A DNA stretch of 64,000 bases from assembly GCA_015063125.1 (NCBI GenBank), contig SUTB01000001.1, forward strand, positions 248,001-312,000, written 5' to 3'. Positions within the stretch are counted from its first letter, which is position 1. The number at the start of each line of letters is the position of its first letter. Source of the stretch: Thermoplasmata archaeon. Lineage in GTDB: Archaea > Thermoplasmatota > Thermoplasmata > Methanomassiliicoccales > Methanomethylophilaceae. The translations under genes were made by a program, and so were the position numbers. Below the pieces are notes generated by a model. That model was not told the origin of the DNA, searched no databases, and was given only the letters and a program-made list of their open reading frames with translations. Shown here piece after piece: positions 8,216-61,840 of the stretch.

Positions 8216-8224
8216 TCCAATTCC

Positions 8225-46611: not shown

Positions 46612-47415
46612 ATGCTCATAGAATATGACGAGAACAACCGTAAGCATCGTTTGATCCGTTCCACGGTCATCACGATACTGTCATTGGCAACCTTCCTGGT
46701 GCTATGGTGGATTGCAACGATAGTGATGAACGACAGGAATTTCCCAACTCCGGACAAGGTGTTCGGAGCGCTGTGGAATCTCCTGCTATATGGTGACCCG
46801 ATAGGCGGTCATAGCATATGGGAGTACATCGCCGTCAGTTTGAACACATTCCTCAACGGATTCGGATTGGCCCTTGTATTAGCGGTGCCGTTGGGACTCT
46901 TGCTAGGATACGTAAAATTCCTGAGGGAGTTCACGGCACCTTGGATCGAGGTCGTGCGCCCGATCGCACCAATCGCTTGGGCGCCCATATTCGTACTTTC
47001 TTTCGGATCTCAGCTGGGACCCGCGCTGGTCGTGTTCATCGGAATTTTCTTCCCGTTGCTCACGAACATAATATTCGGAGTCCAGCGTATCGATAAGAAT
47101 TGGCTGGATGCATCCAAGACTCTAGGAGCTTCCCAGGGTCAGTTGTTCACAAAAGTCGTTCTTCCTGCAACAGTCCCGTACATCTTGAACGGAATCAAGG
47201 TTGGACTGGGAGTCGGGTGGATGTGTATCGTTGCTGCTGAGATCTACAACAAGTTCGGCGGTATCGGTCAGTACCTCGTGGACATGGTCAACGGCGGACT
47301 GATGTCGAACGCATTCGCTGCAATCATAATAATCGCAGTATTAGGATTGATGACAACTGGAGTGGCCGAGTACATTAGCAAGGTCGTTTCACGCAGAATG
47401 GGGATGGATGCATGA
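46612..47415 (+). CDS. ABC transporter permease (SsuC/TauC type)
   Basis: Inner membrane permease, 267 residues, six spans. NFPTPDKVFGALWNLL precedes the core, SIWEYIAVSLNTFLNGFGLALVLAVPLGLLLG matches the family, and the EAA loop reads DASKTLGASQGQLFTKVVLPATVPYILNGIKVGLG. It lies 40 bp after the binding protein and overlaps the ATPase start by four bases. Confidence 0.93.
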   Translation: MLIEYDENNRKHRLIRSTVITILSLATFLVLWWIATIVMNDRNFPTPDKVFGALWNLLLYGDPIGGHSIWEYIAVSLNTFLNGFGLALVLAVPLGLLLGYVKFLREFTAPWIEVVRPIAPIAWAPIFVLSFGSQLGPALVVFIGIFFPLLTNIIFGVQRIDKNWLDASKTLGASQGQLFTKVVLPATVPYILNGIKVGLGVGWMCIVAAEIYNKFGGIGQYLVDMVNGGLMSNAFAAIIIIAVLGLMTTGVAEYISKVVSRRMGMDA

Positions 47416-48275
47416 GCAAGCAAGAGATGGTAATAGAGGGAGAGAAGTACAACTCCAAGGACAGAATCCGTGCTGACCATACCGATCTTCTTTATGCGGA
47501 CATTCCTGAAGGGGAGCCTCTTCTGAAGATTGAGAATCTCAATGTGATATACCGTACCGACGACAAGGAGACGGTTGCCGTGGATAATCTCAACTTTGAA
47601 ATCAACAAAGGTGAGCTTGTCTCAATAGTCGGTCCTTCAGGATGCGGTAAGTCCACCATCCTAAGGTGTATCTCAGGACTTCTCCAACCTACATCAGGAA
47701 CCATAATGATTGGCGACAACAAGTGCACAACTGCAGGATCCGATAGAGGTATGGTTTTCCAGGATTTCGCATTGTTCCCCTGGAGGACTGTGAGGAAGAA
47801 CATAGAGTTCGGACTCGAGATCGCAGGAGTTCCTAAGGAGGAGAGAAAGGAGCGTAGCGAAAGGTATCTGAAGGCCATGGGCTTGTCGGAGTTTGCCGAT
47901 TCGCGCATCCACGAGCTTTCCGGAGGAATGAAGCAACGTGTCGGTATTGCAAGGGCAATGATCATGCATCCGGCAGTGATCTTAATGGATGAGCCCTTCG
48001 GAGCATTAGATGCACAGACACGTAATATTCTCCAGGAAAGCCTGGTGGATGTCCTCCAGAAGTCTCCACGTACGATCATCTTTGTCACGCACTCCGTGGA
48101 TGAGGCCCTGGTCCTTTCGGACCGCATTATAGTTCTTTCTAAGAGGCCGGCGACGATCCATAAGATCTTCAAGGTTCCCGGAGAACATCCCCGCGATAGG
48201 GCATCTCCAGAATTGGCTGCTTTGAGGAAAGAGATACTTACATATCTCCAGTCTCAGAACACCATGAATAGCTGA
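47412..48275 (+). CDS. ABC transporter ATP-binding protein (SsuB/TauB type)
   Basis: ATPase of the importer, 287 residues. Walker A GPSGCGKST, Q-loop VFQDFALFPW, signature LSGGMKQRVGIARA, Walker B VILMDEPFGALD, H-loop FVTHSVDEAL. A 35-residue hydrophilic extension precedes the core. The start overlaps the permease stop (ATGA). A strong terminator follows. Confidence 0.95.
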   Translation: MSKQEMVIEGEKYNSKDRIRADHTDLLYADIPEGEPLLKIENLNVIYRTDDKETVAVDNLNFEINKGELVSIVGPSGCGKSTILRCISGLLQPTSGTIMIGDNKCTTAGSDRGMVFQDFALFPWRTVRKNIEFGLEIAGVPKEERKERSERYLKAMGLSEFADSRIHELSGGMKQRVGIARAMIMHPAVILMDEPFGALDAQTRNILQESLVDVLQKSPRTIIFVTHSVDEALVLSDRIIVLSKRPATIHKIFKVPGEHPRDRASPELAALRKEILTYLQSQNTMNS

Positions 48276-48342: not shown

Positions 48343-49092
48343 TCAGTGGTGATGCTCATGACAGCAGCACCCTTCCTCATGCTCATGGTGGTGCTCGTGC
48401 CCATGGTGCTCGTGACCACAGCAGCACTCTTCCTCATGCTCATGGCAGTGGCATTCGTCTGAGCAACAGCAGTAGTAGTGAACGTCCTCGTAGTAGTTGT
48501 TCACAACGCATTTTCCGTGGTGCTCATGGCTGCAGCAGCACCCTTCCTGATGCTCATGGTGGTGCTCGTGTCCGCATTCGCACTCGCCGTGCTCACAGCA
48601 GCAGTGGTAGTACACTTTGCCGTAGTAGTTGTTCACAACGCATTCCTCTTCCTCATGCTCATGGCAGCAGCATTCTCCGTGCTCATGATCATGGTGGTGA
48701 TGGTGATGGTGGTGATGCTCATCAATCTCGCACATGAGTCCGCTGTCATCGATCGCATGGTGCATAACGTGGTGGAGTTCCTCCTCATCAACATCGAGCA
48801 CTGCGGACATGAATGTGAAACTGACCTTCTCCTGAGGCCCGAGTGTTCCGTGCTTCTCAACACCGTTGCTCATGTCGGTCAGGTTGAATGTGATGCCGGA
48901 TCCGTCCTCGAGAGTGACCGCGGCCTTGATGTGTCCAAGGAGCACACCTGCCTCGGAGACGACCCAATTTCCAACGGAAGTCATGGCCTTAACGAGTCTG
49001 GCCTCCGCATCCGCGTTCCAGCAGTCTATGCTTCCAGTGAGTCCGGTGGCAACTCCGCCGGCCTGTTCCAATGATGTCTTCTCTCCGCTCAT
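48343..49092 (-). CDS. extremely His/Cys-rich putative metal-binding protein
   Basis: A 249-residue protein in two parts. Residues 1-120 are an ordinary soluble domain of unknown family (GVLLGHIKAAVTLEDGSG, FTFMSAVLDVDEEELHHVMHHAI). The remaining 125 residues hold by my count 39 His and 24 Cys: a run of nine His, then alternating CCC and HEH clusters around two copies of CVVNNYY plus a following CCC (ECVVNNYYGKVYYHCCC, KCVVNNYYEDVHYYCCC). This is a high-capacity site for Ni, Co, Zn or Cu. It overlaps the stop of the CobW-type GTPase by four bases, so it is most likely that GTPase's metal donor or store. The low-complexity DNA also gives long meaningless frames on the other strand. Confidence 0.85.
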   Translation of the reverse strand: MSGEKTSLEQAGGVATGLTGSIDCWNADAEARLVKAMTSVGNWVVSEAGVLLGHIKAAVTLEDGSGITFNLTDMSNGVEKHGTLGPQEKVSFTFMSAVLDVDEEELHHVMHHAIDDSGLMCEIDEHHHHHHHHHDHEHGECCCHEHEEEECVVNNYYGKVYYHCCCEHGECECGHEHHHEHQEGCCCSHEHHGKCVVNNYYEDVHYYCCCSDECHCHEHEEECCCGHEHHGHEHHHEHEEGCCCHEHHH

Positions 49093-49676
49093 TTCATCAT
49101 CTCATAAACTGAATCCATGTTCTCTCCGGTCTTGGCAGAGATGACCATGACCTTCTTGTCAGGGAATTCCTTCTTGAACCATGCCTCGATGGCATCGACC
49201 TGTCCTGGTTTGGCCAGGTCCTTCTTGTTGATCAGAACGAAATCGGCTCCGACCATCTGTCTCTTAATGAACTCTTCCTTCTTATCGATCAGGATTTGGA
49301 ATCTCTCGACATCGGATATGCCTATGATGAAGATTCCCTCGGCATCCACGCCTGAGCTCTCAACGAGTTCTTTCACCTTGTGGGGCAATGCCAATCCTGT
49401 CGGTTCGACGATGATGATGTCGGGATCGATGTCGTCCTCGATGTTCTTCATAGCTGTCTGCAGCGTTCCGGAAAGGGAGCAGCAGATGCATCCGTCAGGG
49501 AGTTCGATCGCATCATATCCCTCAGCTTTGAGGGTGGCGCCATCCACACCGATCTCACCGGATTCGTTGACCAGGAGAGCGGTTTTCAGTCCACGCTTGG
49601 TGTACATGGATGCTAGTTTCATCAGAAGGGTGGTCTTTCCACTTCCAAGGAATCCGCCCAATATGTATACGAACAT
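49089..49676 (-). CDS. short CobW/COG0523-family GTPase
   Basis: Metal-chaperone GTPase, 195 residues. Motifs: Walker A GGFLGSGKTT, GEIGVDGATL in the switch region, the metal motif GCICCSLSG (CxCC), Walker B EPTGLA and base recognition INKKDLA. Typical family members add a CobW C-terminal domain of about 100 residues; here the protein stops after the G domain (SAKTGENMDSVYEMMK). The ATG at 49676 is favoured over one seven codons earlier because a TATA box at 49699-49706 predicts transcription start there. The adjoining His/Cys-rich protein may supply the metal-binding part in trans. Confidence 0.87.
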   Translation of the reverse strand: MFVYILGGFLGSGKTTLLMKLASMYTKRGLKTALLVNESGEIGVDGATLKAEGYDAIELPDGCICCSLSGTLQTAMKNIEDDIDPDIIIVEPTGLALPHKVKELVESSGVDAEGIFIIGISDVERFQILIDKKEEFIKRQMVGADFVLINKKDLAKPGQVDAIEAWFKKEFPDKKVMVISAKTGENMDSVYEMMK

Positions 49677-49698
49677 AACCCTCTGTATCATCATCATA

Positions 49699-49858: not shown

Positions 49859-50269
49859 ATGACCATACTTATTGCGTACGATGGGAAACCGCACACGGAA
49901 GCCGCATTGAATTACGCCACCAAGCTGTCGGTGGGCCTCAACGAGCCCCTGTACATACTAACAGTGGTCTCGAAGGATCAGATGGATCCCGAGGACATAG
50001 ACACATCCGTGCAGGCGTACATGCAGGCCGCACAGGAGAGAGCTATGCTCAACGGTGCAACCGATGTACACATAATCATCGAGGTCGGTAAACCCGATGA
50101 CACGATCCTGGAGGTAACCGACAGGTTCCAATGCGATGCAGTAGTGGTCGGCAGGCCGGACAGGTCCCGCTTCGACAGGATGGTCATGGGAAGCGTTTCT
50201 CAGAACCTCGTCGAGAACTCTTCCTCCCCCGTCATCATTGTCCCCACGCCCGAAGAGAGCAAGGACTGA
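49859..50269 (+). CDS. universal stress protein UspA family
   Basis: A 136-residue nucleotide-binding stress protein. TILIAYDGKPHTEAALNYATKLS opens the fold, then YMQAAQERAMLNG, DAVVVGRPDRSRFDRMVMGSVSQNLVENSSSPVIIVP contains the ATP-binding G-2x-G-9x-G(S) pattern in slightly altered form (GRPDRSRFDRMVMGSVS). Function is generic stress survival. It faces the chaperone operon tail to tail with a shared terminator. Confidence 0.92.
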   Translation: MTILIAYDGKPHTEAALNYATKLSVGLNEPLYILTVVSKDQMDPEDIDTSVQAYMQAAQERAMLNGATDVHIIIEVGKPDDTILEVTDRFQCDAVVVGRPDRSRFDRMVMGSVSQNLVENSSSPVIIVPTPEESKD

Positions 50270-50320: not shown

Positions 50321-51892
50321 TCAGTTCGCATTGGTGACCTTGTCCATCAGGCCCTGAGACTTGGAGATCTCATCGGCGGACATGGTCATCTCGTTCTCGA
50401 TCTGGTAGTCGGAGTGCTGCTCCATGCAGTCCACCGAAGCGATGAGGATACCCTCGTTGGTAGCAGTGAACTTCACGGTGATCGGGGTGCTCTTGGTGAC
50501 ATCCACAGGCAGCTCCATCATGAAGTTTCCGACAGGTGCTCCCTCGATGACAGGGGTCTTCTTTCCTCTGTCGTCGTTGAATGCCGCATCCTCGTAGATC
50601 TCCACCATGATGGTGTTCTGACCGTCGTCGACGGGGTAGTACGTCTTGACGTTCTCGATGGGCAGAGCCTCGTTCCTGAAGATGATGTTGGAGATCATCT
50701 CGGATCCGTCCTCGTAGACCGCTTTGATTCCGAAGGTCTTGGACAGGACGTTGTGAACGTTGATAGCTCCCTCGACCGTGGATGCTGCTCCGGCAGCGGT
50801 GGTGGCGGCCATATCAGGCGCGACCATGTTGGACTTGGCGAAGATGGCTGCTCCCTTGGCGACGGATTGGTCGGGGTCGTAGAGGTTGATCTTCGCGTCG
50901 GGGTACTTGGCGGCGATGCTGTTCTTGACCTGAGGCATCCTGGAGGATCCTCCGACAAGGACGACCTCGTCGATATCTGCCATGGTGAAGTCCTTGGAGG
51001 CGAGCACACGGTCGATGATCTCGATGGTGGTCTGGATGAGTCCGCTGGAAGCGTTCTCGAAGTCCTCCCTGGTGACGGTGAAGACGACCTTCTGGCCGTC
51101 GACGGTCATGGTTCCCTTGGTGGACTCAGCTGTGGACAGCCTCTTCTTGATGGTCTCCGAGTCGTTGACGAGGGTCTGCTTGACCTCCTCGTTCTCGTCC
51201 AGGGATTCCTTGTCGATTCCGGTCTCCTCTGAGATCTTCTGCTTGACGATGTTGGAGATAATGGCATCCCAGTCCTTTCCTCCGAGGAACCTCTCTCCGT
51301 CGGTTGCGACGGCAGTGAATGATGTTCCGTCGATCTCGAGGATGGTGACATCGAAGGTTCCTCCTCCGAGGTCGTACACCAGGACTCTCTTCTTGCCGCC
51401 GTCTGCCTTTCCGAATCCGAAGGAGATGGCTGCTGCTGTGGGCTCGTTGATGACGGTGACGTCCTCCAGTCCGGCGATGGTTCCTGCCGTCTTGGTGGCG
51501 TCCCTCTCGTTCTGTCCGAAGTATGCGGGACATGTGATGACCGCCTTCTTGACCTCGCATCCGTGGTTCTCATTGAAGTCGTTGATGATCTTCCTGAGGA
51601 TGACCGCAGAGAGCATGATGGGGTTGTAGGTCTCGCCGTCGATGCTGACGGTGTAGTCTGTTCCCATCTGCCTCTTGATGGACGTGATGACCCTCTCGGG
51701 CTCGTACATCATGGACATGTCCTTTGCGGGAGATCCGACGATGATCTCCCCGTTCTCGTTGAAGAGGATGACTGACGGAGTTGTGTCCTCCTGCTCGAAG
51801 TTCTTCTCAACTACCGGGTCCCCATCCTCATCGATGTAGGCTAGGCACGAGTATGTCGTACCGAGGTCGATACCGATGCAATAATCTGTCAT
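50321..51892 (-). CDS. Hsp70-like chaperone without lid (last gene of chaperone-GTPase operon)
   Basis: A 523-residue DnaK relative. The ATPase domain (1-375) is complete: IGIDLGTTYSCLAY, VITCPAYFGQNERDATK, INEPTAAAISFGFG, VYDLGGGTFDVTIL, EVVLVGGSSRMPQV. A beta-type substrate domain follows (about 390-510: KTFGIKAVYEDGSEMISNIIFRN...), but the alpha-helical lid and the EEVD-like tail of ordinary DnaK (about 610 residues) are missing. Its ATG overlaps the stop of the GrpE-like gene (ATGA). It probably works with the exchange factor and J-like protein of the same operon rather than as the general chaperone. Confidence 0.93.
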   Translation of the reverse strand: MTDYCIGIDLGTTYSCLAYIDEDGDPVVEKNFEQEDTTPSVILFNENGEIIVGSPAKDMSMMYEPERVITSIKRQMGTDYTVSIDGETYNPIMLSAVILRKIINDFNENHGCEVKKAVITCPAYFGQNERDATKTAGTIAGLEDVTVINEPTAAAISFGFGKADGGKKRVLVYDLGGGTFDVTILEIDGTSFTAVATDGERFLGGKDWDAIISNIVKQKISEETGIDKESLDENEEVKQTLVNDSETIKKRLSTAESTKGTMTVDGQKVVFTVTREDFENASSGLIQTTIEIIDRVLASKDFTMADIDEVVLVGGSSRMPQVKNSIAAKYPDAKINLYDPDQSVAKGAAIFAKSNMVAPDMAATTAAGAASTVEGAINVHNVLSKTFGIKAVYEDGSEMISNIIFRNEALPIENVKTYYPVDDGQNTIMVEIYEDAAFNDDRGKKTPVIEGAPVGNFMMELPVDVTKSTPITVKFTATNEGILIASVDCMEQHSDYQIENEMTMSADEISKSQGLMDKVTNAN

Positions 51893-52749
51893 TCTTCTTC
51901 CTCCGTTTTCTTAGCTTTTGCTTTTGTGGTTCTCTTTTTCTTCGAAGTCGTTTTGGTAGCGGGTTTGGCAGGTGCCTCCTCGGCGGCCTTGGGCTGCTCT
52001 TCAGCGACCGGCTGGCTGACCTCAGGGATCTCATGGACGATCTCCTGCGGCATGTTCTCGGTGTACTTGTAGACGGTGACCTTCTCCTTGAGAAGGACCC
52101 TGTCTCCCAGTTTGTAACCGTCGGAGAGCCTCTCAGCTATCTGACCGTTCTTGGACTGGTCGTTCGTCGGTACAACCTCCACTATGCGCTGGTGGATCGT
52201 GTTGAGGGTATCGTACGGGAAGTGTCCGATCTCGACACCTCCGTCGTGCAGGATGTTCTCCATGTCCACTTCGTATGCCTTGAACGATGCAAGCACGTCC
52301 TTGGCGGACATGGTATCGATCTTCTTCTCCATGCCTGCGCACAGCTTGAAGAAATCCTCCCTCATGATGGCGATCTGCTCCATTGAGGATACGAGCGCCT
52401 TGTTCGTTATCTCTATGTTCTGTCTCTCGATCGTAGCCTGGAGAGCCTTGATCTGCTCTCTGGATGTCATGTACTCCGACATGTCCTGCGAAGGGCCGGC
52501 CGATACCCTGAGGGACTCGACTGTGCTCTGCAGACCTGCGATCTGTCTCTTCAGTTCGTTCAATGTATCCTCGACCGATGTCTCGGGGGCATTCTGGGCC
52601 GGCGGTGCATCGTTGACTTGGATCCCCTGATCGTGCAGCTCCTGATCCGTGGGAACCTTGATGCTGACCACATCGTGGGATTCGGGTTCGGGTGTGTTCT
52701 TGTTCTGGAAACTGCCTGACAGGAAGTTCTTGAAATTATAGTCGCTCAT
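51889..52749 (-). CDS. GrpE-like nucleotide exchange factor
   Basis: A 286-residue protein from MSDYNFKNFLSG. Residues about 55-150 are helical with heptads (VEDTLNELKRQIAGLQSTVESL, REQIKALQATIERQNIEI). About 165-230 matches the GrpE beta domain: ILHDGGVEIGHFPYDTLNTIHQRIVEVV, then SDGYKLGDRVLLKEKVTVYK, where GrpE has FDPNxHEAV, GYxLxDRVLRPAxVxV. The Ala/Lys/Thr-rich tail (TKTTSKKKRTTKAKAKK) is non-family. It joins the genes on both sides by ATGA overlaps. Likely releases ADP from the operon's Hsp70s. Recognition is by pattern but the context agrees. Confidence 0.8.
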   Translation of the reverse strand: MSDYNFKNFLSGSFQNKNTPEPESHDVVSIKVPTDQELHDQGIQVNDAPPAQNAPETSVEDTLNELKRQIAGLQSTVESLRVSAGPSQDMSEYMTSREQIKALQATIERQNIEITNKALVSSMEQIAIMREDFFKLCAGMEKKIDTMSAKDVLASFKAYEVDMENILHDGGVEIGHFPYDTLNTIHQRIVEVVPTNDQSKNGQIAERLSDGYKLGDRVLLKEKVTVYKYTENMPQEIVHEIPEVSQPVAEEQPKAAEEAPAKPATKTTSKKKRTTKAKAKKTEEEE

Positions 52750-54008
52750 CTTAGTCCCTCCTTGTTCAGCAGCCAAATGAACGGATCCTCGACCCTCATG
52801 GGGGAGACTCCCCTAGGCAGCGAGTTGCCCGTGGGGTTGCATCCCAGGGCGGACACTGCGAAGAACGAGTGGTCTTTGAAGCTGCGAACCAGCTGTAGGA
52901 ATTCGATACCGATCGTCCTCCTGATGTACTCCTCCAGCTCAGCGTTGATCTGGTCGAAGTTCTCTGCGTCGTACTTCCCGTGCTCGCGCGGGATGTGCAG
53001 CGAGGAGTTCAGTCCGAACAGTACTTTCTTCTCCTCCTCGTTCTCCGAGGATTTGTAGAGCACATCGGACTTTGTCAGGCTGACGGCGATAGGAATGTCG
53101 ATCTTCTCCTTTGATTTGATCTTCTTGTTTGTGCGGATGATCTGACAGATGTTGTTCAGGATATCCGTGGCGTTGGGGCCGACCTCCGGCTTGTTGTCCA
53201 CCTGTATCCTCTGGTTGATGTACTTCACCTGCAGGGGATCCACCAGGTACACTATTCCGGATGCCAGAGATATGAATGCGTTGAGGTTCACCTGCATCAT
53301 CCTGTTGGTGGTAACCAGATCCTCTCCGGCTGTGTCGAAGAAGGCGAAGGTGAACACCTGGGGCTTGTCGCTGTTCAGGATCCTCAGGTAGAAGATCAGC
53401 GGCTCGCGGGAGTCCTCGGAACTTCCGAAGGACAATGTAGGCTGCAGCTTCCTCTTCTCCTCGAAGAGCCTGCGGTAGTAGACGTCCCTGTACTTGATCG
53501 TGGTGCTGTCGTTGGCAGCGTTCAGTACGCCGTTGAACTCGCTGGAGATGGCATTCTTCAGCTGGTTGATCAGCACGGCGATGTAGTGACTCTTACCCAC
53601 TCCCTTGGGTCCGAGGATGACGAAGATCTTGTTGCCTTCCTCCTCCGCTCCCGGCGGGATCATGTTGTGGCAGGTGGGGCACACCCTGAGGTAGACGGGC
53701 CTCTTGCATATGTCGCAGAATCCCGACGAGTTCCTGATGATGTGCTGCTTGGCGACTATCGCGTCCGGTCCGAAGGGGTCCTTTCCGTACACCAGGCTCT
53801 TCTCGCGGTCGATCTCCTTCTGTCCGTCCTTCGAGACGTACATGAGGTCCTTCTCGTTCCTCGTGGCGACCGCATTGGCCGCGAATGTCCTGGAACAGCT
53901 GGGGCTTGTGCAGACGAAGTGGATCTTCGCCATGTCCACCTTGGTGAAGCAGTAGGGACAGACGTAGTCCTTCCTGGCGACGCTGTTGGATTTCTCTTTC
54001 TTGGCCAT
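52746..54008 (-). CDS. zinc-ribbon Ras-like GTPase
   Basis: A 420-residue protein. Two zinc ribbons open it: Cys17, 20, 33, 38 (CPYCF, VCTSPSC) and Cys98, 101, 110, 113 (CDICK, VCPTC). The G domain follows: P-loop GPKGVGKS (133-140), DTAGED (225-230) as the G3 DxxG, and LTKSD (311-315) as the NKxD-type base motif. The long insert between G1 and G3 and the zinc ribbons recall GTPases from multi-gene conflict or surveillance systems, not translation factors. The start directly abuts the stop of the J-like gene (TGA-ATG). Partners are inferred from the operon. Confidence 0.88.
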   Translation of the reverse strand: MAKKEKSNSVARKDYVCPYCFTKVDMAKIHFVCTSPSCSRTFAANAVATRNEKDLMYVSKDGQKEIDREKSLVYGKDPFGPDAIVAKQHIIRNSSGFCDICKRPVYLRVCPTCHNMIPPGAEEEGNKIFVILGPKGVGKSHYIAVLINQLKNAISSEFNGVLNAANDSTTIKYRDVYYRRLFEEKRKLQPTLSFGSSEDSREPLIFYLRILNSDKPQVFTFAFFDTAGEDLVTTNRMMQVNLNAFISLASGIVYLVDPLQVKYINQRIQVDNKPEVGPNATDILNNICQIIRTNKKIKSKEKIDIPIAVSLTKSDVLYKSSENEEEKKVLFGLNSSLHIPREHGKYDAENFDQINAELEEYIRRTIGIEFLQLVRSFKDHSFFAVSALGCNPTGNSLPRGVSPMRVEDPFIWLLNKEGLR

Positions 54009-57000
54009 TCAATCTTGCCTCCTGTTGTACAGCGGGTGTATGAACCTGTAGAGGTTGTAGTCCTCCTCGTTCACGAAGAACACCCTCATGTGCTCCGCAT
54101 CGGTGTGACCGGCTAGGATCACATCTAGCGAGCATTTGCCGTTGGTGAAAGTCACGGGCTTGCCCGAGGACCAGAGCACTTCTCCGTCCTCCTTGCGGAG
54201 AGGAATCCCCACATCTACGCGTACTATGGCGATCTCCGGGATGCTTGTAACCTCGGGACCGGCAGTCAGCTCCAGCATGGGTCTCCTCTTGGCCGGATCC
54301 AGTGTGTAGTAGACCTTCTTGCATTCAGAGGAGTAGACATCGATGACTATCCCTCTGGAGTACATTGTGTCGTTATTGATCTTGTATACCGCGAATATAT
54401 TGATGCACTTCTTGGGAGAGCGTCCCATGGGTATCCTGATGAGCTTCTCCTCGTTGTACTCCTCACGGCTGACCGTTATGATCTCAGCAGTGGGGTCGTT
54501 GATGTTCTTGGCATCGGACGTGGAAACGACCAGCTTGGCCGATATGGCATCCTCTGGCCAGGTCATGGTCAGGATACAGTCCTTGTTGCTGATGATCTTC
54601 TCGACGTCGCGGAAGGGCTTCAGGTTGGCGATGAGGACCTCGGTACCTTTGATACCGACCTTGCCCATCGGGATTATGGGGTAGATGTACTCCACCGCTC
54701 CGTCGGGCAGGAAGAACCTGCATCCGTTATCGTATTCGACAACGGGCTGGATCTCGTTCATCCAGGCCTTGATGTCCTCCATCTTGACCATGTTGCCCTG
54801 AATGGTGTACTTCTTCTCGGAGGAGAACAGCATCACCTGGCTTTTGGTGGACCATGTGGCCTGATACGTTCCGTCGGTCTTCATCCACTGTATGTCGAGG
54901 TCGCGGACGGGCTTGGGTGCGTCCACAGGAGTTCCGGAGAACACGTTGCCCTCCGACCTCTCGATCTTGTTCCTGGTCTGGTATTCGGCCACGAATAGGT
55001 AGTAGTACGTTTGTCCGCCCTTCAGACCTAGGTCGTCGTATACGGATTCGCCGTTGATCGGAAGCTCCACGTTGGTACCGCTGACGTTGTCGGCTCTCCA
55101 TACGCGGACCTGGGTGGCTCCGCGGGGCTTGTCGTACATCAGGCGGAGACCGCCGTCGATCTGCTCGATCGTGACATTATCGACCTCGGCCAGGATGATG
55201 ACCGGTCCGAAGTGGGCCGCTTCCCTGGAGAGTATTCCCCAGCGTCTGGAGTACACAGAGTAGTGGTACTCGACTCCGGGTTCCAGGGACTTGTCTATGA
55301 ACGCGGTTCCCGATATCTCGGTCAGCGGACGGGTCTCGTCAGTAACGTTGGGCAGGGAGTTCTTCTCCCTGTAGATCATGTAGGTTACGCCCTTGCTGTC
55401 CATCGGCGGTTCGAACTTCAGCAGGAAGTGACCCTTATCCCTCAGGACCTTTCCGTTGGGATCGACGGGGCCCGCGGGCGGGTACTGCTTGAGCACTCCT
55501 TTGGCTACCGGGTGGTCGGGGCATTCCTGTGCCGCACCGACATACAGCGAGAGCATCTCGTTCCTGTCCTCTGCGGACTTGGCCTTCTCGCAGTAGACAT
55601 TGGCATGTTCGACGCGCTGCAGGGACTCCTCGTACTTCTGTTTGATATCCGGGTAGGTCTGCAGTTCGTAGGGGTACTTCGCGACGATGGTGTCTCCGGC
55701 GCTCTTCGCGGAGTAGAACTTGTTCGTCTTGTATCCGTCGGAGACCATGCCCCTCAGGGTGTTGAGGGTTCCCTGCTCCTTGCGGAGCTGAATCTCCATG
55801 GCTGCGATGCCGGGGAATGTCGAATACGTATCCTTCAGGAGGGTGAGCTCCTTCTCCGCCTTCGAGAGGTTTCCTCTCTGGAGGTCCATCTGGAAGCTGA
55901 GGGATAGGTTCTGAGCCTTGGTCTCCCCTTCCTTGAAGTTGAATCCGCACTTGATACAGATGTTGTTGCTGGCCATCTGTGCAGTGCTGCACTGGGGACA
56001 GACTATCTTGAAGTTCTTACCGCAGTAGGGACAGTAGATGGTGTTCTTCCCGCCGGGAACCATGTTGTTACACGTTGGGCACCTGATCATCGTGCTGTCC
56101 ATCTTCGAGAAGTTGGCAGCTATCCTCTTCTTGTGGCAGAACATCTCCAGTATGAACACGCACATGTTCTGGTCCAGTCCCCTGACATAGATGTTCATCA
56201 GATCGTCTATGTAGGTCCTGGAGATCTGCTGGCCATTGTATTCGCCCTCGATCCTGTCCATGACGGGCTCCAGGGCCTTGTAGCATCTTCCGTAGTTGAT
56301 GAGGTCCTTGAAGTCCTTGTCCGAATCGATGATGAGCTTCATGCTCCTCAGGACCGAGATGTAGGAGTCCTGGTCCAGCAGGAGCTCCTGCCTGACGCTG
56401 TTGACCCTCTTCTCGCACAGATCGAACGCGTTCCTTATCTGGGCGAGGGAGCTGGTCTCCGTGAGGGGATCGCACCTAATCTCCAGATCAGGATTGTTGA
56501 TCAGTGTGTTGAGAACCTCCACCGGCGTGTATGAATCCACGGTGGTGAGGTTCGTGAACGCGTTCAAGACCTTCTCGCTGACGATCTTCGGTATACCGCC
56601 GTCCGTCACTCCAGCCAGCTTCAGTACCTGAGCCTTGTTCACGCCATCCCAGTGCAGCCTCTTGACGAAGTTGTCCGCTATGCCGGGAAGGATGAAGTAT
56701 CTGCCGTCTGAGAGTATGACGCAGTCCATCTTGAGCTTCTGACATTTGCCCTCGAGGCTCTTCTTACCGTCGGCGAAGACCTTTCTCCTGAGCACGGGGT
56801 CCGCCATGCAGCGCCTCATGTTGGGGATCTGGTCTAGCAGCTTATGGTACTTGAACCTCTGACCTGTGTCGTTCTGCTTGTTCCTGAACTCGTTAGCCCA
56901 CTTGACCTCCATCTTGTCGATCTTCTCGTTGATCTTATCGAGGGAGTACTTGTTCTCGCCGAATGGGTCGAGTCCAAGGAGCTGACAGTAGTTCTCTGTC

Positions 57001-57011
57001 TGATTGTCCAT
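54009..57011 (-). CDS. 1000-residue J-like, zinc-ribbon and FN3-like repeat protein
   Basis: Residues 1-90 look like a modified J domain (YCQLLGLDPFGENKYSLDKINEKIDKMEVKW, then DPVLRRKVFADG) but the HPD tripeptide that activates Hsp70 is missing. About 90-305 is helical, of unknown family. Zinc ribbons: Cys311, 314, 327, 330 and Cys338, 341, 352, 355. About 365-500 is helical and TPR-like. From about 515, FN3-like beta domains follow (FLLKFEPPMDSKGVTYMIYRE, LEPGVEYHYSVYSR; LRLMYDKPRGATQVRVWRA, LKGGQTYYYLFVAEYQ). More beta domains run to the C terminus. No signal peptide, so FN3-like domains are intracellular. It probably scaffolds substrates between the Hsp70s and the GTPase; this is inference. 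Confidence 0.85.
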   Translation of the reverse strand: MDNQTENYCQLLGLDPFGENKYSLDKINEKIDKMEVKWANEFRNKQNDTGQRFKYHKLLDQIPNMRRCMADPVLRRKVFADGKKSLEGKCQKLKMDCVILSDGRYFILPGIADNFVKRLHWDGVNKAQVLKLAGVTDGGIPKIVSEKVLNAFTNLTTVDSYTPVEVLNTLINNPDLEIRCDPLTETSSLAQIRNAFDLCEKRVNSVRQELLLDQDSYISVLRSMKLIIDSDKDFKDLINYGRCYKALEPVMDRIEGEYNGQQISRTYIDDLMNIYVRGLDQNMCVFILEMFCHKKRIAANFSKMDSTMIRCPTCNNMVPGGKNTIYCPYCGKNFKIVCPQCSTAQMASNNICIKCGFNFKEGETKAQNLSLSFQMDLQRGNLSKAEKELTLLKDTYSTFPGIAAMEIQLRKEQGTLNTLRGMVSDGYKTNKFYSAKSAGDTIVAKYPYELQTYPDIKQKYEESLQRVEHANVYCEKAKSAEDRNEMLSLYVGAAQECPDHPVAKGVLKQYPPAGPVDPNGKVLRDKGHFLLKFEPPMDSKGVTYMIYREKNSLPNVTDETRPLTEISGTAFIDKSLEPGVEYHYSVYSRRWGILSREAAHFGPVIILAEVDNVTIEQIDGGLRLMYDKPRGATQVRVWRADNVSGTNVELPINGESVYDDLGLKGGQTYYYLFVAEYQTRNKIERSEGNVFSGTPVDAPKPVRDLDIQWMKTDGTYQATWSTKSQVMLFSSEKKYTIQGNMVKMEDIKAWMNEIQPVVEYDNGCRFFLPDGAVEYIYPIIPMGKVGIKGTEVLIANLKPFRDVEKIISNKDCILTMTWPEDAISAKLVVSTSDAKNINDPTAEIITVSREEYNEEKLIRIPMGRSPKKCINIFAVYKINNDTMYSRGIVIDVYSSECKKVYYTLDPAKRRPMLELTAGPEVTSIPEIAIVRVDVGIPLRKEDGEVLWSSGKPVTFTNGKCSLDVILAGHTDAEHMRVFFVNEEDYNLYRFIHPLYNRRQD

Positions 57012-57024
57012 GTTAACGACCTGT

Positions 57025-59055
57025 TCAGCGCACAGCTAGACCCATGTTACCAGATGAAATCGCGGTTGCGATCGTACCGAAGGTGTCTCCTAGCTTGTCG
57101 ATGGTGGTGAACAGAGCACCGTCGTCGACAGTGGCGATCTGCCTGAGGAACGATGTGTCGGCCTCTCCGAGACCGACTGCGATGATCGTGATGTTCTCGG
57201 ACCTGCAGGCGAGGGCCTGCTCTACGGCATTCTCCCTCTTTCCCCAGATTCCGTCCGTGAGCACGACGATGATGCCGACTCCGGGCTGTCCGCCCACGAC
57301 CGCACTCGCAGTGGCGAGCGGGCTGGCGTCCGTACCTCTTCCGAGCATCTTGACCTTGAGCTCCTCAATGGAGTTCATTATGACATCCGTATCGTTGGTG
57401 AGTTCCTGGACAACCTTGATCTTGTCACCGAATCCGATGAGGGAGAACCTTGTCTCATCAGCGGAAAGCGTGCGGACGAAGTTGCGTATCGAGTCCTTTG
57501 CAGCCTCGATGGGTTCGCCGTCCATACTCCTGGAGAGATCGACGCAAATCGCGATGTTCTTTGCGATGACAGCATCGCTGGGCTTGTCGTGCGGGTCACC
57601 GCCCATCCACCTGATATCCTCAGGGACGGGCTCAGACTTTACCTCCAGTGGCTCCTCGCCCTGGAATGCCTTGATGTTGACGATTCCGTTCTCGTCGTAA
57701 TTGTACTCAATGTCGATGATCTCTCCCTTTCCGCTGTTGTAGAATCCGGAGATGACCACTTTGGCGAGGACGTTACAGTCCAGAGGTACCCTGGACTCTC
57801 CCTGGAGGGTATAGACCTCGATCTTGTCCGTGACGTTGCCGGGCTTTATCTCGAACTGCTTCCTGCAGTTGCTGGGGACCTTAGAGTTCCTCTTGATCAT
57901 GATCTCGTTGACGTACTTCTTGCCGTCCTTGCTGACGGACAGTGCTCCCAGACTGTGGGCGGTGACGTCCGTGACCTGCATGGCGGCCCTGATGCCTGTG
58001 GCGCTGCTGCTGTACAGCTCGGCTGTGATGGCAGCTCCCTTGGCGACCGCAAGATCGGTATCGCCGTGTGTGATGACCTCACGTCCAGTGAGGTCCTTCA
58101 GGAACTTGGCGACTCCAGGCATCCTTGTGGATCCTCCGACCAGGAGGATCTCGTCGATGTTGGTCCACTGCATCCCGACGGAATCCATGAGGTCCTCGCA
58201 GACCTCCTTGGTGGCGTTCATCAGGTGCTCTGTCATGGACTCGAACTCGTCCCTTGTGAGCGTGTATTTCTCGCTGCATCCGTCGTAATTAACGGGGATG
58301 GTGACGCTCTCTGCTATCGAGAGGGTCTTCTTGTAACCCTCTGCAGCTACGATGAGCTCGTTCTTGGTAGGCAGGTCGTCCCTCGGATCCACATCGAACT
58401 CGTTGTAGAACTTGTCGCATACGAATTTGACGATCGCAGCGTCCCAGTCCTTTCCTCCAAGGATGTGGTTTCCGTTGGTACCTACGACCTCTATGTTTCC
58501 TTTGCTGATCCTGACGATCGTGACATCGAAGGTTCCTCCTCCGAGGTCGTAGACCAAGAGCGTCTTGTCAGCAGAGTGCTTGTATCCGTATGAAATTGCA
58601 GCTGCGGTAGGCTCGTTGATGATCTTGGGCACCTTTATGCCGCATGATTCGCCCGCGCGCTTGGTAGCGGTCCTCTGTGCATCTTCGAAGTATGCGGGGA
58701 CCGTGATGACAGCTTCGTCGACCTTCTCGCCTGCCGCTTTCTCCGCATCATCTATGAGGTGCTTGAGCAGCATTGCGGAGAGGTCCTCGGCGGTGTAATC
58801 CTTTCCGTTGAAGCTCACCACTACGGAGCCGTCGCCCATGTTGCGCTTGAAAGCTGCGGCGTTGACTCCTGTACCGTTCGACTGCATGTCCTTGGCATCC
58901 TCACCGACCAGGATGTCGCCGTCATCTAGGAAACAGATGACTGACGGTGTGATCTCCTTTCCGAACGAGTTGTTCAGCATGATCGGCTTGTTGGTTGCCG
59001 TGTCATATCTTGCTACTGCAGAGTATGTTGTTCCGAGGTCTATACCTACCTTCAT
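57025..59055 (-). CDS. Hsp70-vWA fusion protein (first gene of chaperone-GTPase operon)
   Basis: A 676-residue fusion. Residues 1-375 are a full Hsp70 ATPase domain (VGIDLGTTYSAVARY, ITVPAYFEDAQRTATK, INEPTAAAISYGYK, VYDLGGGTFDVTIV, ILLVGGSTRMPG). About 385-480 is a substrate-binding beta domain. The lid is replaced by a von Willebrand A domain (500-672) with a complete metal-ion-dependent adhesion site: DLSRS (506-510), GRGTDASPL with Thr575 and VVLTDG with Asp601. So chaperone ATPase and Mg2+-dependent protein binding are joined in one chain. A TATA box and a palindrome precede it. The next gene follows after 13 bp. Confidence 0.95.
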   Translation of the reverse strand: MKVGIDLGTTYSAVARYDTATNKPIMLNNSFGKEITPSVICFLDDGDILVGEDAKDMQSNGTGVNAAAFKRNMGDGSVVVSFNGKDYTAEDLSAMLLKHLIDDAEKAAGEKVDEAVITVPAYFEDAQRTATKRAGESCGIKVPKIINEPTAAAISYGYKHSADKTLLVYDLGGGTFDVTIVRISKGNIEVVGTNGNHILGGKDWDAAIVKFVCDKFYNEFDVDPRDDLPTKNELIVAAEGYKKTLSIAESVTIPVNYDGCSEKYTLTRDEFESMTEHLMNATKEVCEDLMDSVGMQWTNIDEILLVGGSTRMPGVAKFLKDLTGREVITHGDTDLAVAKGAAITAELYSSSATGIRAAMQVTDVTAHSLGALSVSKDGKKYVNEIMIKRNSKVPSNCRKQFEIKPGNVTDKIEVYTLQGESRVPLDCNVLAKVVISGFYNSGKGEIIDIEYNYDENGIVNIKAFQGEEPLEVKSEPVPEDIRWMGGDPHDKPSDAVIAKNIAICVDLSRSMDGEPIEAAKDSIRNFVRTLSADETRFSLIGFGDKIKVVQELTNDTDVIMNSIEELKVKMLGRGTDASPLATASAVVGGQPGVGIIVVLTDGIWGKRENAVEQALACRSENITIIAVGLGEADTSFLRQIATVDDGALFTTIDKLGDTFGTIATAISSGNMGLAVR

Positions 59056-59059
59056 AATC

Positions 59060-59099
59060 CCATCGCGGAAGCGATGGTTCTCACTCTATATAATATAAA
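59060..59099 (-). promoter_or_regulatory. promoter and start-site palindrome of chaperone-GTPase operon
   Basis: On the minus strand TTTATATTATATAG (59099-59086) holds the TATA box. CCATCGC-ggaa-GCGATGG (59060-59077, plus-strand reading), a perfect 7-bp inverted repeat, lies four bases before the start codon, at the predicted transcription start. It could be a repressor site over the start point or a hairpin in a very short leader. Confidence 0.55.
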
Positions 59100-59211
59100 G
59101 GAAACGGTTTTACGATATTCGTAGCTTATAAAAGGTGACGGCTTAATTTTGAAAAGTAAAGTAGTTTTGATGACGGATTTCGTAGCTATTCTGGAAGACG
59201 TTTTTCCATCA

Positions 59212-59409
59212 TCATTCAGCACTTCTTCTGGTGCGTATGAGCATCATTATGAGCACCACGACGACCCCTAAAGCAATCAATCCGGAGGCAACCATGATGA
59301 TCATTTGGTTCTCGATGAAGAAGTCCCTTGCCAAAACCATGAGAGCCGACATCGCCATGAGGGCAGCGGCTAGGATGACCGCAGCATAAACCAATGGTCC
59401 CTTGATCAT
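59212..59409 (-). CDS. small two-span membrane protein
   Basis: A 65-residue hydrophobic protein with two membrane helices (VYAAVILAAALMAMSALMVLA and MIIMVASGLIALGVVVVLIMMLI) and a basic tail RTRRSAE. No family is recognised. It lies between the chaperone operon and the divergent Sel1-repeat gene with only 27 bp to the latter. A real gene is likely from its clean membrane pattern, but no ribosome binding site is obvious. Confidence 0.55.
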   Translation of the reverse strand: MIKGPLVYAAVILAAALMAMSALMVLARDFFIENQMIIMVASGLIALGVVVVLIMMLIRTRRSAE

Positions 59410-59436
59410 GGGCTTTGGATAGACCTACGGATAGAA

Positions 59437-60405
59437 ATGCATTGGGTTAAATCGTTGGGAGCAGTTAAGGGGAGCATGGAAGATCCTGCCGTCTACTGCA
59501 TGCAGGCAGTCAACTGTTATCAGACCAATCCCGAGAGGGCGGTAGCCCTGTTCGAACGTGCCGCCGAACTCGGGTCTCCCGAGGGTTATTTCGGTTTGGC
59601 GGAGATGAAGATCAACGGGATGGGCACACCCAAGGACGTCGAGGGCGCTGTAGAGCTGTACAAGAAGTCAGCAGAAGGAGGGAACACCCCTGCCATGTTC
59701 AGGCTAGGCGGAATATACACCGGCTCATACGGATACCCCGAGGACAAGGAGCAATGCAGGATCTGGTTCGAGAAGGCTGCAGAGGGGGGTGTGGAGCTCG
59801 CATATCCCGAGATCGCCGCCATCTACCTCTACGGGTACGGCACGGAGCCCGATTCCAGCAAGGCTCTCCATTACTACAAGCTCTCCGCCGACACAGGCAA
59901 CGCACAATCCATGTTCATGGTCGGATACATAGAATCTGAACTAGTCGCCACGGACGAGTCCAGAGAGGACTCCGTAAAGTGGTTCGTCAAGTCTGCCGAG
60001 GGAGGGATCCCGGAGGCACAGTTCAGGGTTGCTAGGCTGACGGAGGATGGGAAGATCCCCGGAGGATTCGATGAGGCCAAGAAATGGTACGAGAAGGCAG
60101 CCGACCAGGGATTCGACCCTGCCAAGTTCAATCTCGCCACCATGTATTATGAAGGAAGGGGCACCAAGCAGAATCTGGAGAAGGCATTCGTCCTTTACGA
60201 TGAGGTGGCCTCGTCCGGAGACGGTGATGCGCTGTTCATGACCGCCAGAATGCTGTATAGCGGCCTGGGCATAGCGCAGAACACTGAAGAAGCAATGGAA
60301 AGGTTCGGACGTTCCGCCGCAGCGGGAAATAAGCTGGCTGAGGAGTTCCTCACCGATATCCGCCGCAAGCAGAACGCCCAATTCGTGAAGATAGACGGAC
60401 TGTGA
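59437..60405 (+). CDS. Sel1-like repeat protein
   Basis: A 322-residue protein of seven or eight Sel1/TPR-like helical repeats with the usual (G)xxxAxxxLGxxYxxGxGxxxDxxxAxxWYxKAAxxG pattern: AEGGNTPAMFRLGGIYTGS, AADQGFDPAKFNLATMYYEGRG, ASSGDGDALFMTARMLYSGLG. It has no signal peptide, so it probably acts as a cytoplasmic protein-binding scaffold. Two starts are possible: ATG 59437 or ATG 59476 (MEDPAVYCMQ); the first 13 residues lie outside the repeats. It sits next to the chaperone operon but on the opposite strand; a functional tie is only a guess. Confidence 0.88.
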   Translation: MHWVKSLGAVKGSMEDPAVYCMQAVNCYQTNPERAVALFERAAELGSPEGYFGLAEMKINGMGTPKDVEGAVELYKKSAEGGNTPAMFRLGGIYTGSYGYPEDKEQCRIWFEKAAEGGVELAYPEIAAIYLYGYGTEPDSSKALHYYKLSADTGNAQSMFMVGYIESELVATDESREDSVKWFVKSAEGGIPEAQFRVARLTEDGKIPGGFDEAKKWYEKAADQGFDPAKFNLATMYYEGRGTKQNLEKAFVLYDEVASSGDGDALFMTARMLYSGLGIAQNTEEAMERFGRSAAAGNKLAEEFLTDIRRKQNAQFVKIDGL

Positions 60406-60667: not shown

Positions 60668-61840
60668 ATGGCTATGAAGACAGCCACTGTACTGGGAGCA
60701 GCCCTGGCGGTCGTCGTCCTCTGTCTCATCGGATCATATCTCGTGATGGAGAACAACAACAGCGATTCGCCGGACTTTCTCGGAGAATGGACCCTAGAGC
60801 ACATCGCCACGGGAAAATACGTGGACGATGAGTCATGTTACGAGGTCGTCGAGACATTCGATCTCGAGATGAAGATCACAGACCGTAAGGACGGATTCTA
60901 CAACATCCAGATCGGAGACGAGAAGGCTGTGTGTGCACTGGACGGTGACATCCTGACGTTCAGCATGTTCAATGCAGACGTCCTTAGGGGATTCGCCAAG
61001 GCGGACGGGGATTGGATCAAAGTGTCCACCGTGGACTACAGCACCAGAAGTGTTACCGTGCTCGACTTCGTCCGCAAGGGCGTGGATGCGGGCAACGGCG
61101 CTCCAACCGTGAAGAGCGATATGCCTGCAGACGGAACGATCCTCGACGCATTCCAGGCATATAGGATCGATTCGGACAGCACTACAGACATCATGTCCTA
61201 CGAATACTCCTTCGAGATGCTGGAAAACCACGGTGATGTGGCATTCTACAGATCTCATTGCGAGGACCCCTATATCGATTTCAGGTTCGTATCGATAAAG
61301 ATCGATGAAGGACAATGGTTCTCGATGGCGATCTTCAACGATGACATCCTGATGGACAACATATATCTGAGCAACGGCAACATCTACTCCTTCTCTCAGG
61401 AAGAGCTGGTTGATGAGAACCGTGTTTGGTACGTCGCATACGGGGACGCAGCGAAGCATCAGGCGATCCCTGCTAAATTGGCTGGACTGTCTTTCGAAGG
61501 AAAGGAGAAGGCGATGCTGTTCGACTGCGAACCGAATCTTATTAGGGAATTCAGCAACGACATCACCCTTACGATAGATGCGCAGAGCGATGACATCATC
61601 CTCATCTCCACCGATTACGGAGGAGAGAATTTCCACGGTACCGCCCAGTGGGCGTCTTTCGTAGCCAAGTCCGACGGCGGATACATGTTCTACATCCAGT
61701 CGCAGTTCTTCTACGAGGGGAAGCACTACTTCGGTTATTACAGCGGAACCATCGACAGCAATCTGAAGAAAGTGTCGTTCAACGGTGTCGCTGACAGCGA
61801 TTATGGTAAGTACTACATCGTGGTCAGCCAGAGCTACTGA
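60668..61840 (+). CDS. secreted membrane-anchored beta-rich protein, unknown
   Basis: A 390-residue exported protein. Residues 5-26 form a signal anchor (ATVLGAALAVVVLCLIGSYLV). The rest is predicted outside the cell and consists of about three stretches of beta strands with similar rhythm: LGEWTLEHIATGKY with DGDILTFSMFNADVLRG, then WFSMAIFNDDILMDNIYLSNG, then ITLTIDAQSDDIILISTDYGG with GYYSGTIDSNLKKVSF. The pattern recalls lipocalin-like repeats, but I cannot assign a family. No cell-wall motif or metal site. It is monocistronic with a terminator after the stop. Confidence 0.72.
   Translation: MAMKTATVLGAALAVVVLCLIGSYLVMENNNSDSPDFLGEWTLEHIATGKYVDDESCYEVVETFDLEMKITDRKDGFYNIQIGDEKAVCALDGDILTFSMFNADVLRGFAKADGDWIKVSTVDYSTRSVTVLDFVRKGVDAGNGAPTVKSDMPADGTILDAFQAYRIDSDSTTDIMSYEYSFEMLENHGDVAFYRSHCEDPYIDFRFVSIKIDEGQWFSMAIFNDDILMDNIYLSNGNIYSFSQEELVDENRVWYVAYGDAAKHQAIPAKLAGLSFEGKEKAMLFDCEPNLIREFSNDITLTIDAQSDDIILISTDYGGENFHGTAQWASFVAKSDGGYMFYIQSQFFYEGKHYFGYYSGTIDSNLKKVSFNGVADSDYGKYYIVVSQSY

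Follow-up and report, generated by a model that had tools for sequence, protein, structure and literature searches.

A probable GAP1-less archaeal relative of the bacterial GTPase-centric Hsp70/GrpE systems in Methanomethylophilaceae

Bacterial GAP1-N2 systems and the archaeal operon

GTPase-centric systems were predicted from bacterial genomes and classed as conflict systems, with a DO-GTPase and GAP1 as their two conserved components (Kaur et al. 2020, PMC7159879). According to the passages of that paper on GAP1-N2, around 14% of GAP1-N2 neighbourhoods hold HSP70 and GrpE, a subset of them with a second HSP70; the FNIII protein of this Hsp70/GrpE theme is typically fused to DnaJ or TPR, and the second DO-GTPase has membrane helices. 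Here we describe a five-gene operon with closely similar parts and no detected GAP1, found in a stretch of 64,000 nucleotides (the window) from a Thermoplasmata archaeon of the family Methanomethylophilaceae (GCA_015063125.1, contig SUTB01000001.1, positions 248,001 to 312,000 of the forward strand). The genome is 1.65 Mb in size and 99% complete. Its nearest named records are Methanomassiliicoccales/Methanomethylophilaceae, many of them from animal guts judging by their titles.

Five open reading frames (ORFs) lie on the minus strand at 50321-59055 of the window, with the coordinates and the tight packing that an earlier sequence-only reading (the initial annotation) had given. In transcription order the genes are separated by 13 bp and 0 bp and then joined by two ATGA overlaps (52746-52749 and 51889-51892):

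57025-59055, minus strand: Hsp70-vWA, 676 residues (Pfam HSP70 and VWA; 26-row alignment)
54009-57011, minus strand: scaffold protein, 1000 residues (AlphaFold2 model, fold searches, invariant ribbon cysteines)
52746-54008, minus strand: zinc-ribbon DO-GTPase (PF19993) with two N-terminal zinc-ribbon-like cysteine sets, 420 residues (Pfam and alignment)
51889-52749, minus strand: GrpE-like protein whose N-terminal part is long and whose tail is basic (Pfam GrpE)
50321-51892, minus strand: second (small, lidless) Hsp70 with ATPase domain and beta substrate-binding domain, 523 residues (Pfam; alignment with the genome's own DnaK)

For the GrpE-like gene we prefer the ATG at 52749 as start, since the listed TTG at 52776 is merely the first start after a stop.

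Based on its gene content, the operon is very probably a GAP1-less relative of the bacterial GAP1-N2 systems of the Hsp70/GrpE theme, and it is most likely a descendant of them. The likeness extends to the zinc-ribbon DO-GTPase, an FNIII protein with a J or TPR part, the set of HSP70, GrpE and second HSP70, and a second, membrane-type DO-GTPase, which in the window's genome does not lie beside the operon. The initial annotation knew of no described system with exactly these parts. This does not hold, since the parts of PMC7159879 that concern this theme describe a near-identical, GAP1-bearing bacterial set (DO-GTPase, FNIII-DnaJ/TPR, HSP70, GrpE and second HSP70). The class itself was thus already predicted in 2020, and what is new here is its GAP1-less archaeal variant.

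The differences are nonetheless several. GAP1 was detected neither in the operon nor in the window's genome, and the Hsp70-vWA fusion goes unmentioned in the HSP70 passages of PMC7159879. The J-like fold of the scaffold lacks the HPD motif, and the small Hsp70 keeps its beta substrate-binding domain. In contrast to the mobile neighbourhoods with variable effectors of the bacterial systems, the neighbours here are largely constant, show no mark of mobility and include no recognised effector.

For comparison, named genomes were scanned with the GTPase profile; 49 of the best 80 among at least 167 confirmed loci were bacterial (Bacillota, Actinomycetota, Planctomycetota, Pseudomonadota and others); genes beyond the 10 kb flanks or the contig ends would escape these counts. 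GAP1 was found by our own hidden Markov model (HMM) in 46 of the 49, and one of the three others (L156) has GAP1 by Pfam. All five gene kinds occur together in 10 loci, the Hsp70-vWA fusion in 13, GrpE in 20 and two or more GTPase matches in 33, while 19 have no Hsp70 in the examined stretch. For example, the Alkalihalobacterium locus (L153) has the order GrpE, Hsp70, Hsp70-vWA, scaffold, DO-GTPase, GAP1 and second DO-GTPase. The Metabacillus litoralis locus (L159) likewise combines all five gene kinds with GAP1 and a second DO-GTPase.

Less close are the CoCoNuT systems, which in the relevant parts of PMC11090510 also have Hsp70 homologues near vWA (TerY-P) genes and GTPases. They differ in their McrB-type GTPases, nucleases and kinases, none of which was matched by Pfam in the five operon proteins. 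Our searches of the open-licence literature found no experimental study of DO-GTPase systems; a PSP paper (PMC11237479) mentions a DO-GTPase in a passage predicting a role in membrane-related stresses.

Domain content of the five proteins

The operon GTPase matches Pfam DO-GTPase2 (PF19993) at 2.7e-8 and 34.2 bits, over the cut-off of 27. Its residues G133, G138, K139, D225, G228, E229, K313 and D315 are invariant in 16 aligned rows, leaving the G1, G3 and G4 motifs intact. E229 is the Walker-B glutamate, a feature given for DO-GTPases in the corresponding passage of PMC7159879. The zinc-ribbon cysteines C98, C101, C110 and C113 are likewise invariant, and an additional N-terminal cysteine set is present in the window's protein and in most of the 16 rows. 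Solved structures searched with the GTPase profile were matched weakly at best (E of 0.0076 or higher).

Both Hsp70s have the beta half of the substrate-binding domain and no helical lid. In Hsp70-vWA, Pfam HSP70 matches at 5.1e-110 up to position 488 of the 599 in the profile and VWA at 3.7e-19 over residues 500-651, so that a nucleotide-binding domain and a beta substrate-binding domain are followed by a vWA domain where the lid would be. K70, E148, D170, T175 and D177, which we take to be the Hsp70 catalytic positions, are invariant in the 26-row alignment. The vWA domain of the window shows the full metal ion-dependent adhesion site (MIDAS) pattern DxSxS..T..D, and D506, S508, S510 and D601 are invariant in the same rows. 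When aligned with the genome's own DnaK, the small Hsp70 (Pfam HSP70, 4.8e-92) shows the same catalytic motifs; its Pfam match runs to position 511 of 599 and so takes in the beta half of the substrate-binding domain but not the lid. The interdomain linker is LLLDV in that DnaK and different in both operon Hsp70s.

The GrpE-like protein passes the cut-off of Pfam GrpE (PF01025, 1.3e-8, 35.1 bits against 25.8), covering positions 10-164 of the 165 in the profile, and reaches 15.9 bits with the NCBIfam GrpE equivalog, under its cut-off of 172. The initial annotation had rightly named a Hsp70-vWA fusion, a GTPase with intact G1, G3 and G4 motifs, a GrpE-like protein and a lidless small Hsp70.

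The scaffold has Pfam matches under the cut-off only (DZR 1.6e-5, fn3 0.084), and its architecture comes from the AlphaFold2 model (mean predicted local distance difference test, pLDDT, 87.7; predicted template modelling score 0.42). The model runs from an N-terminal J-like helical part through a double zinc ribbon and helical hairpins to fibronectin-III-like (FN3) beta domains. The eight cysteines of the double ribbon are invariant in 52 scaffold rows, and FN3 matches extend across residues 511-897 in the fold search of the model. Because these matches filled the search with the whole protein, the N-terminal 120 residues were folded alone (pLDDT 87.6). With VIA-align, 21 of the 30 best rows for this part are J domains or J-type co-chaperones by name, the best being HscB (Z 8.0, root-mean-square deviation 3.3, 77 aligned), and the J-domain matches cover residues 1-90; Z values from 8.0 down are at a level that the tool rates as unsafe alone for helical folds. 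Foldseek gave no match at E of 0.001 or lower, with DnaJ entries ranking first (a DnaJ fusion, E 0.16) and second (E 0.22), and Pfam DnaJ gave no match at E of 1 or lower. By eye, HP without the D follows the second helix in 5 of 12 bacterial scaffold rows. Judging from the models, the N-terminus is probably a J-like fold. The J-like part first proposed for this protein is thus probably correct as to its fold, and its J function is doubtful.

Two observations concern the scaffold genes of relatives. A single in-frame TAG stands at the same place in those of genomes G018 and G026 (L073:7490-7492, L098:6040-6042), and the GAP1 genes of G018 and G006 likewise share the position of one such codon (L066:8043-8045, L071:8083-8085). 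Since pyrrolysine is known from this archaeal order, these codons may be read through. At another locus (L074/L127, genome G001), the scaffold frame runs free of stops past the GTPase gene into the GrpE frame for 1708-1723 codons, either an assembly error or a real fusion.

The same genome has an ordinary DnaK elsewhere (G000:C3), beside a DnaJ with a Pfam DnaJ domain and near an ORF that by eye reads like GrpE. The operon resembles this DnaK-DnaJ-GrpE set in having an Hsp70 ATPase with catalytic residues, a GrpE family match and a J-like fold, and differs from it in its lost or vWA-replaced lids, the missing HPD and the added GTPase. The two operon Hsp70s score 359 and 311 bits with the DnaK equivalog, under its cut-off of 648. 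We accordingly rejected the idea that the operon consists of copies of ordinary DnaK, DnaJ and GrpE, given these scores, the missing lids and the missing HPD.

With the MoxR-vWA and RavA-ViaA chaperone pairs, which are named in the relevant passage of PMC7159879, the operon shares a vWA domain working with a chaperone ATPase; it differs in that the ATPase is an Hsp70 rather than an AAA+ protein and the vWA domain is fused in cis.

Distribution, GAP1 and the membrane-type GTPase

All 30 genomes sampled from the genus, the window's own among them, carry the operon GTPase gene; outside the genus it was found in one of six genomes from the family, and it was missing from all 24 sampled elsewhere in the order. 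In a sample of the phylum it was found in 29 of 389 genomes, all of the same family, after three weak matches (E 1.6e-4 to 7.1e-4) had been dropped. Relative loci that hold all five genes have them in one order and on one strand in 25 of 25 cases (24 of the genus and that of G032), with four of these loci cut inside a gene by a contig end; the count leaves aside second-operon loci and the first operon of G002. Six other stretches, cut by contig ends, do not contradict this order, and locus L128 has the scaffold end, GTPase, GrpE and Hsp70 in the same succession. The initial annotation had spoken of a self-contained chaperone-GTPase set and had asked whether relatives would show the genes scattered or as plain DnaK/DnaJ/GrpE copies. 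They stay together, and the ordinary set lies elsewhere, so this comparison does not refute the proposal.

Distances between the operon proteins correlate with those between DnaK proteins (r 0.61-0.75, Mantel p of 0.007 or lower, 18 genomes), in a comparison without G006 (L261) and with some rows partial because of contig ends or a scaffold split by TAG. This fits vertical inheritance of the operon, as judged from these protein distances. The operon distances are 1.8 to 7.0 times those of DnaK, with the scaffold and the GrpE-like protein at 6-7 times.

In the window's genome (G000), searches for GAP1 gave no match to PF20014 even at E 10 and none to PF20013 at E 0.001. Our own HMM found no GAP1 beside the operon or beside the second DO-GTPase. 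GAP1 was present in 7 of 60 genomes searched, all of the window's genus and each time beside a second, paralogous GTPase copy; GAP1-N2 and GAP1-M were over the Pfam cut-off in all three of the second operons tested. The phylum sample gave GAP1-N2 in 4 of 389 genomes, two of them of the window's genus and two with weak matches of 23-24 bits, standing alone, in another family of the class.

A tree of 58 GTPases places the archaeal rows in one clade (support 100/99). Within it, the GAP1-less rows form a clade together with the divergent row of G006, labelled 'orphan' in the tree and coming from that genome's first operon (99/93), and five GAP1-containing archaeal rows form another, without full support (97/78). 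Given these clades and the mostly GAP1-bearing bacterial loci, we infer that GAP1 was lost by descent, with one loss en route to the widespread archaeal operon as the simplest reading. The divergent G006 copy (L081) lies beside a Sel1 gene, and its GTPase branch has a length of 2.64. Separately, Methanomassiliicoccaceae archaeon COG_1 carries two diverged operons in one genome (L131 and L132), with no GAP1 match in either stretch.

The second, membrane-type DO-GTPase of the window's genome is encoded around 117 kb from the operon (G000:C4:423566-425092). Its hydropathy profile shows hydrophobic segments at residues 8-33, 87-105 and 169-187 and none at the C-terminus. It scores 23.6 bits with PF19993, under the cut-off of 27, and aligns with a relative (L125) that passes. 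In L122, L123, L125, L132, L133 and G032, all of the archaeal family, the counterpart is encoded on the other strand, a few kb past the operon. By eye, the window genome's copy adjoins a homologue of the gene that flanks its counterpart in L133, a gene presumably pirin-like.

Strong matches to this second GTPase were found in 28 of 31 operon-positive genomes against 0 of 29 others, and the three misses are 61, 82 and 87% complete. G002 and G006 were counted as misses, their matches (best E 1.7e-21 and 4.1e-26) being at second-operon sites or elsewhere; the raw tally, with these two included, is 30 of 60 genomes. In the phylum sample the ratio is 20 of 29 against 0 of 360, a match in G194 having been dropped that fell inside the first GTPase gene, and in these samples the membrane-type protein was never seen without the operon. 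Extra weak matches, away from the second operons, occur at G018:C3, G026:C5/C23/C30, G029:C24, G001:C21/C68, G006:C144 and G002:C20, in genomes that carry a GAP1-containing operon. Near the window genome's second DO-GTPase are reverse-transcriptase-like and tyrosine-recombinase-like ORFs (L218:1956-4646 and 7483-9087; by eye).

Possible working, alternatives and neighbouring genes

The operon most likely encodes an Hsp70 remodelling machine that is gated by GTP and has a cellular role. More specifically, we propose that a GAP1-less GTPase-centric relative has been kept as a stable cellular machine in Methanomethylophilaceae, a reading to which we give about equal belief and doubt. A cellular assembly or quality-control task is a better fit than a conflict system, because none of the sampled genomes of the genus lacks the GTPase gene, no effector is recognised and inheritance is apparently vertical.

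How such a machine might work can be sketched tentatively, and we rate the sketch a little below the general reading. The scaffold would hold the two lidless Hsp70s through its HPD-less J fold and its zinc ribbons. The vWA domain with its MIDAS site, standing in the lid's place, would grip a specific protein rather than close over any hydrophobic peptide, and this grip and the FN3 arms would choose the client, with the GrpE-like protein resetting the Hsp70s. The zinc-ribbon DO-GTPase would be the switch of the assembly. Its GTP-dependent pairing with the membrane-type second DO-GTPase would place the complex at the membrane, where we infer that a target is assembled or remodelled. GAP1, the presumed partner of the GTPase pair in bacteria, would be dispensable here, and the switch might be simpler or constitutive. 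The Hsp70-vWA fusion in particular predicts a chaperone that holds its client by a MIDAS metal site in place of a lid. A bolder claim, that after GAP1 loss the set became an indispensable cellular apparatus of the archaeal family, GTP-switched, recruited to the membrane and with a vWA metal grip for a lid, seems to us rather unlikely.

Several observations weigh against the main proposal. No HPD motif was found in the 52 scaffold rows (L121 and L148 do not contain that N-terminal region), so it is doubtful that the scaffold's J fold stimulates the Hsp70 ATPase. The middle threonine of the MIDAS site is not conserved in many bacterial rows of the 26-row alignment, where it is often N. The GTPase tree is rooted at the midpoint only, and GAP1 may be present in a form beyond the reach of the HMMs. 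The co-occurrence counts of the two GTPases are not phylogenetically independent, and in the phylum sample 9 of the 29 genomes with the operon, from two further genera of the family, have no membrane-type DO-GTPase, so this GTPase is dispensable. Finally, at least one operon (G127, L226) has no GrpE, with only 88 bp between GTPase and Hsp70.

Under the bolder claim, such erosion across genera would reveal the working core: GAP1 is lost, then in some genomes the membrane-type GTPase and in one GrpE, and elsewhere only a lidless Hsp70 near Sel1 genes remains. Of the five family genomes without the operon, three (G031, G033 and G034) carry an extra Hsp70. Those at L238 and L239 are closest to the operon's small Hsp70 and lie near Sel1 genes; L237 is less clear. 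What lasts appears to be a core of Hsp70-vWA, scaffold, GTPase and small Hsp70. The archaeal operon offers a reduced, testable protein set, and its presence in each sampled genome of the genus, with neither GAP1 nor a recognised effector, argues that at least this branch of a class predicted as conflict systems has a cellular job.

An anti-virus or conflict system, with FN3 repeats as sensors of an invader, the GTPase as the element that fixes a threshold and Hsp70 assembly as the response, would agree with the homology to systems classed as conflict systems in the relevant passages of PMC7159879, with scaffold and GrpE-like distances 6-7 times those of DnaK, and with a second paralogous operon in some genomes only. 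It is nevertheless improbable: no effector gene is recognised in or beside the operon, the GTPase is in 30 of 30 genomes of the genus with largely constant neighbours, and the operon distances correlate with those of DnaK. PADLOC gave the five operon proteins partial matches only (E of 0.0026 or higher), and in database searches the scaffold matched no plasmid sequence and the GTPase no phage sequence. Among nine neighbours in the window PADLOC matched one, strongly, an ATPase at 47412-48275 (13 families, best mad3 at 1.6e-33); going by its sequence and a permease-like neighbour, both read by eye, these matches appear to reflect similarity to ABC transporters. The initial annotation had suggested a stress or defence complex, and the defence part of that suggestion is weakened by these results.

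The stress part would make the operon a specialised DnaK/DnaJ/GrpE copy for heat or oxygen stress with the GTPase as regulator. Hsp70, GrpE and J-like folds do occur together here, and a universal stress protein (Usp) gene lies near the operon in 20 loci. Such a set would be expected neither to miss HPD in every scaffold row that holds the region nor to have two lidless Hsp70s so far under the DnaK cut-off in a genome with an ordinary DnaK set elsewhere, and we regard it as very improbable. A narrower housekeeping form of our own proposal is that the set helps a single abundant complex of the cell surface or membrane to mature, with vWA and FN3 domains dedicated to that client. The restriction of the gene set to one family of the phylum sample would suit it, as would the hydrophobic N-terminal segments of the co-occurring second GTPase and the use of vWA domains with ATPases in complex assembly (RavA-ViaA and Midasin are examples in the relevant passage of PMC7159879). 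However, no client gene is recognised beside the operon, the most frequently retained neighbours, Sel1 and Usp, being no obvious membrane clients, and this narrower form is itself unlikely.

Returning to the operon as a cellular remodelling machine, its surroundings contain one candidate helper and further genes:

59056-59436, strandless: divergent intergenic region of 381 bp, presumed promoter region of the operon and the Sel1 gene (by position only)
59437-60405, plus strand: Sel1-repeat protein, probable associated component (Pfam Sel1, 1.3e-47)
49859-50269, plus strand: universal stress protein gene, a convergent neighbour not claimed as a component (Pfam Usp, 4.6e-26)

All 24 genus loci with at least 1 kb of upstream sequence have a Sel1 gene no more than about 1 kb away from the operon, divergent in 18 and co-directional in 6. 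In family genomes that lack the operon, Sel1 genes likewise occur close to lidless Hsp70s, and Sel1 distances correlate with those of DnaK (r 0.85, 16 genomes). The Sel1 protein is likely a helper of the operon. In 20 genus loci a Usp gene follows on the 3′ side, at distances of up to 3.5 kb; it was not seen at G005 and G024 within 2.2 and 1.5 kb of 3′ sequence.

A 390-residue ORF at 60668-61840 (plus strand), with no match in Pfam or NCBIfam, adjoins the Sel1 gene and has an N-terminal hydrophobic stretch by eye. On the other side of the operon, at 48343-49697 (minus strand), a CobW-type GTPase overlaps a protein with long C-terminal His/Cys/Glu-rich repeats, a pair probably concerned with metal handling; CobW matches also fall inside the fetched stretch of 11 relative loci.

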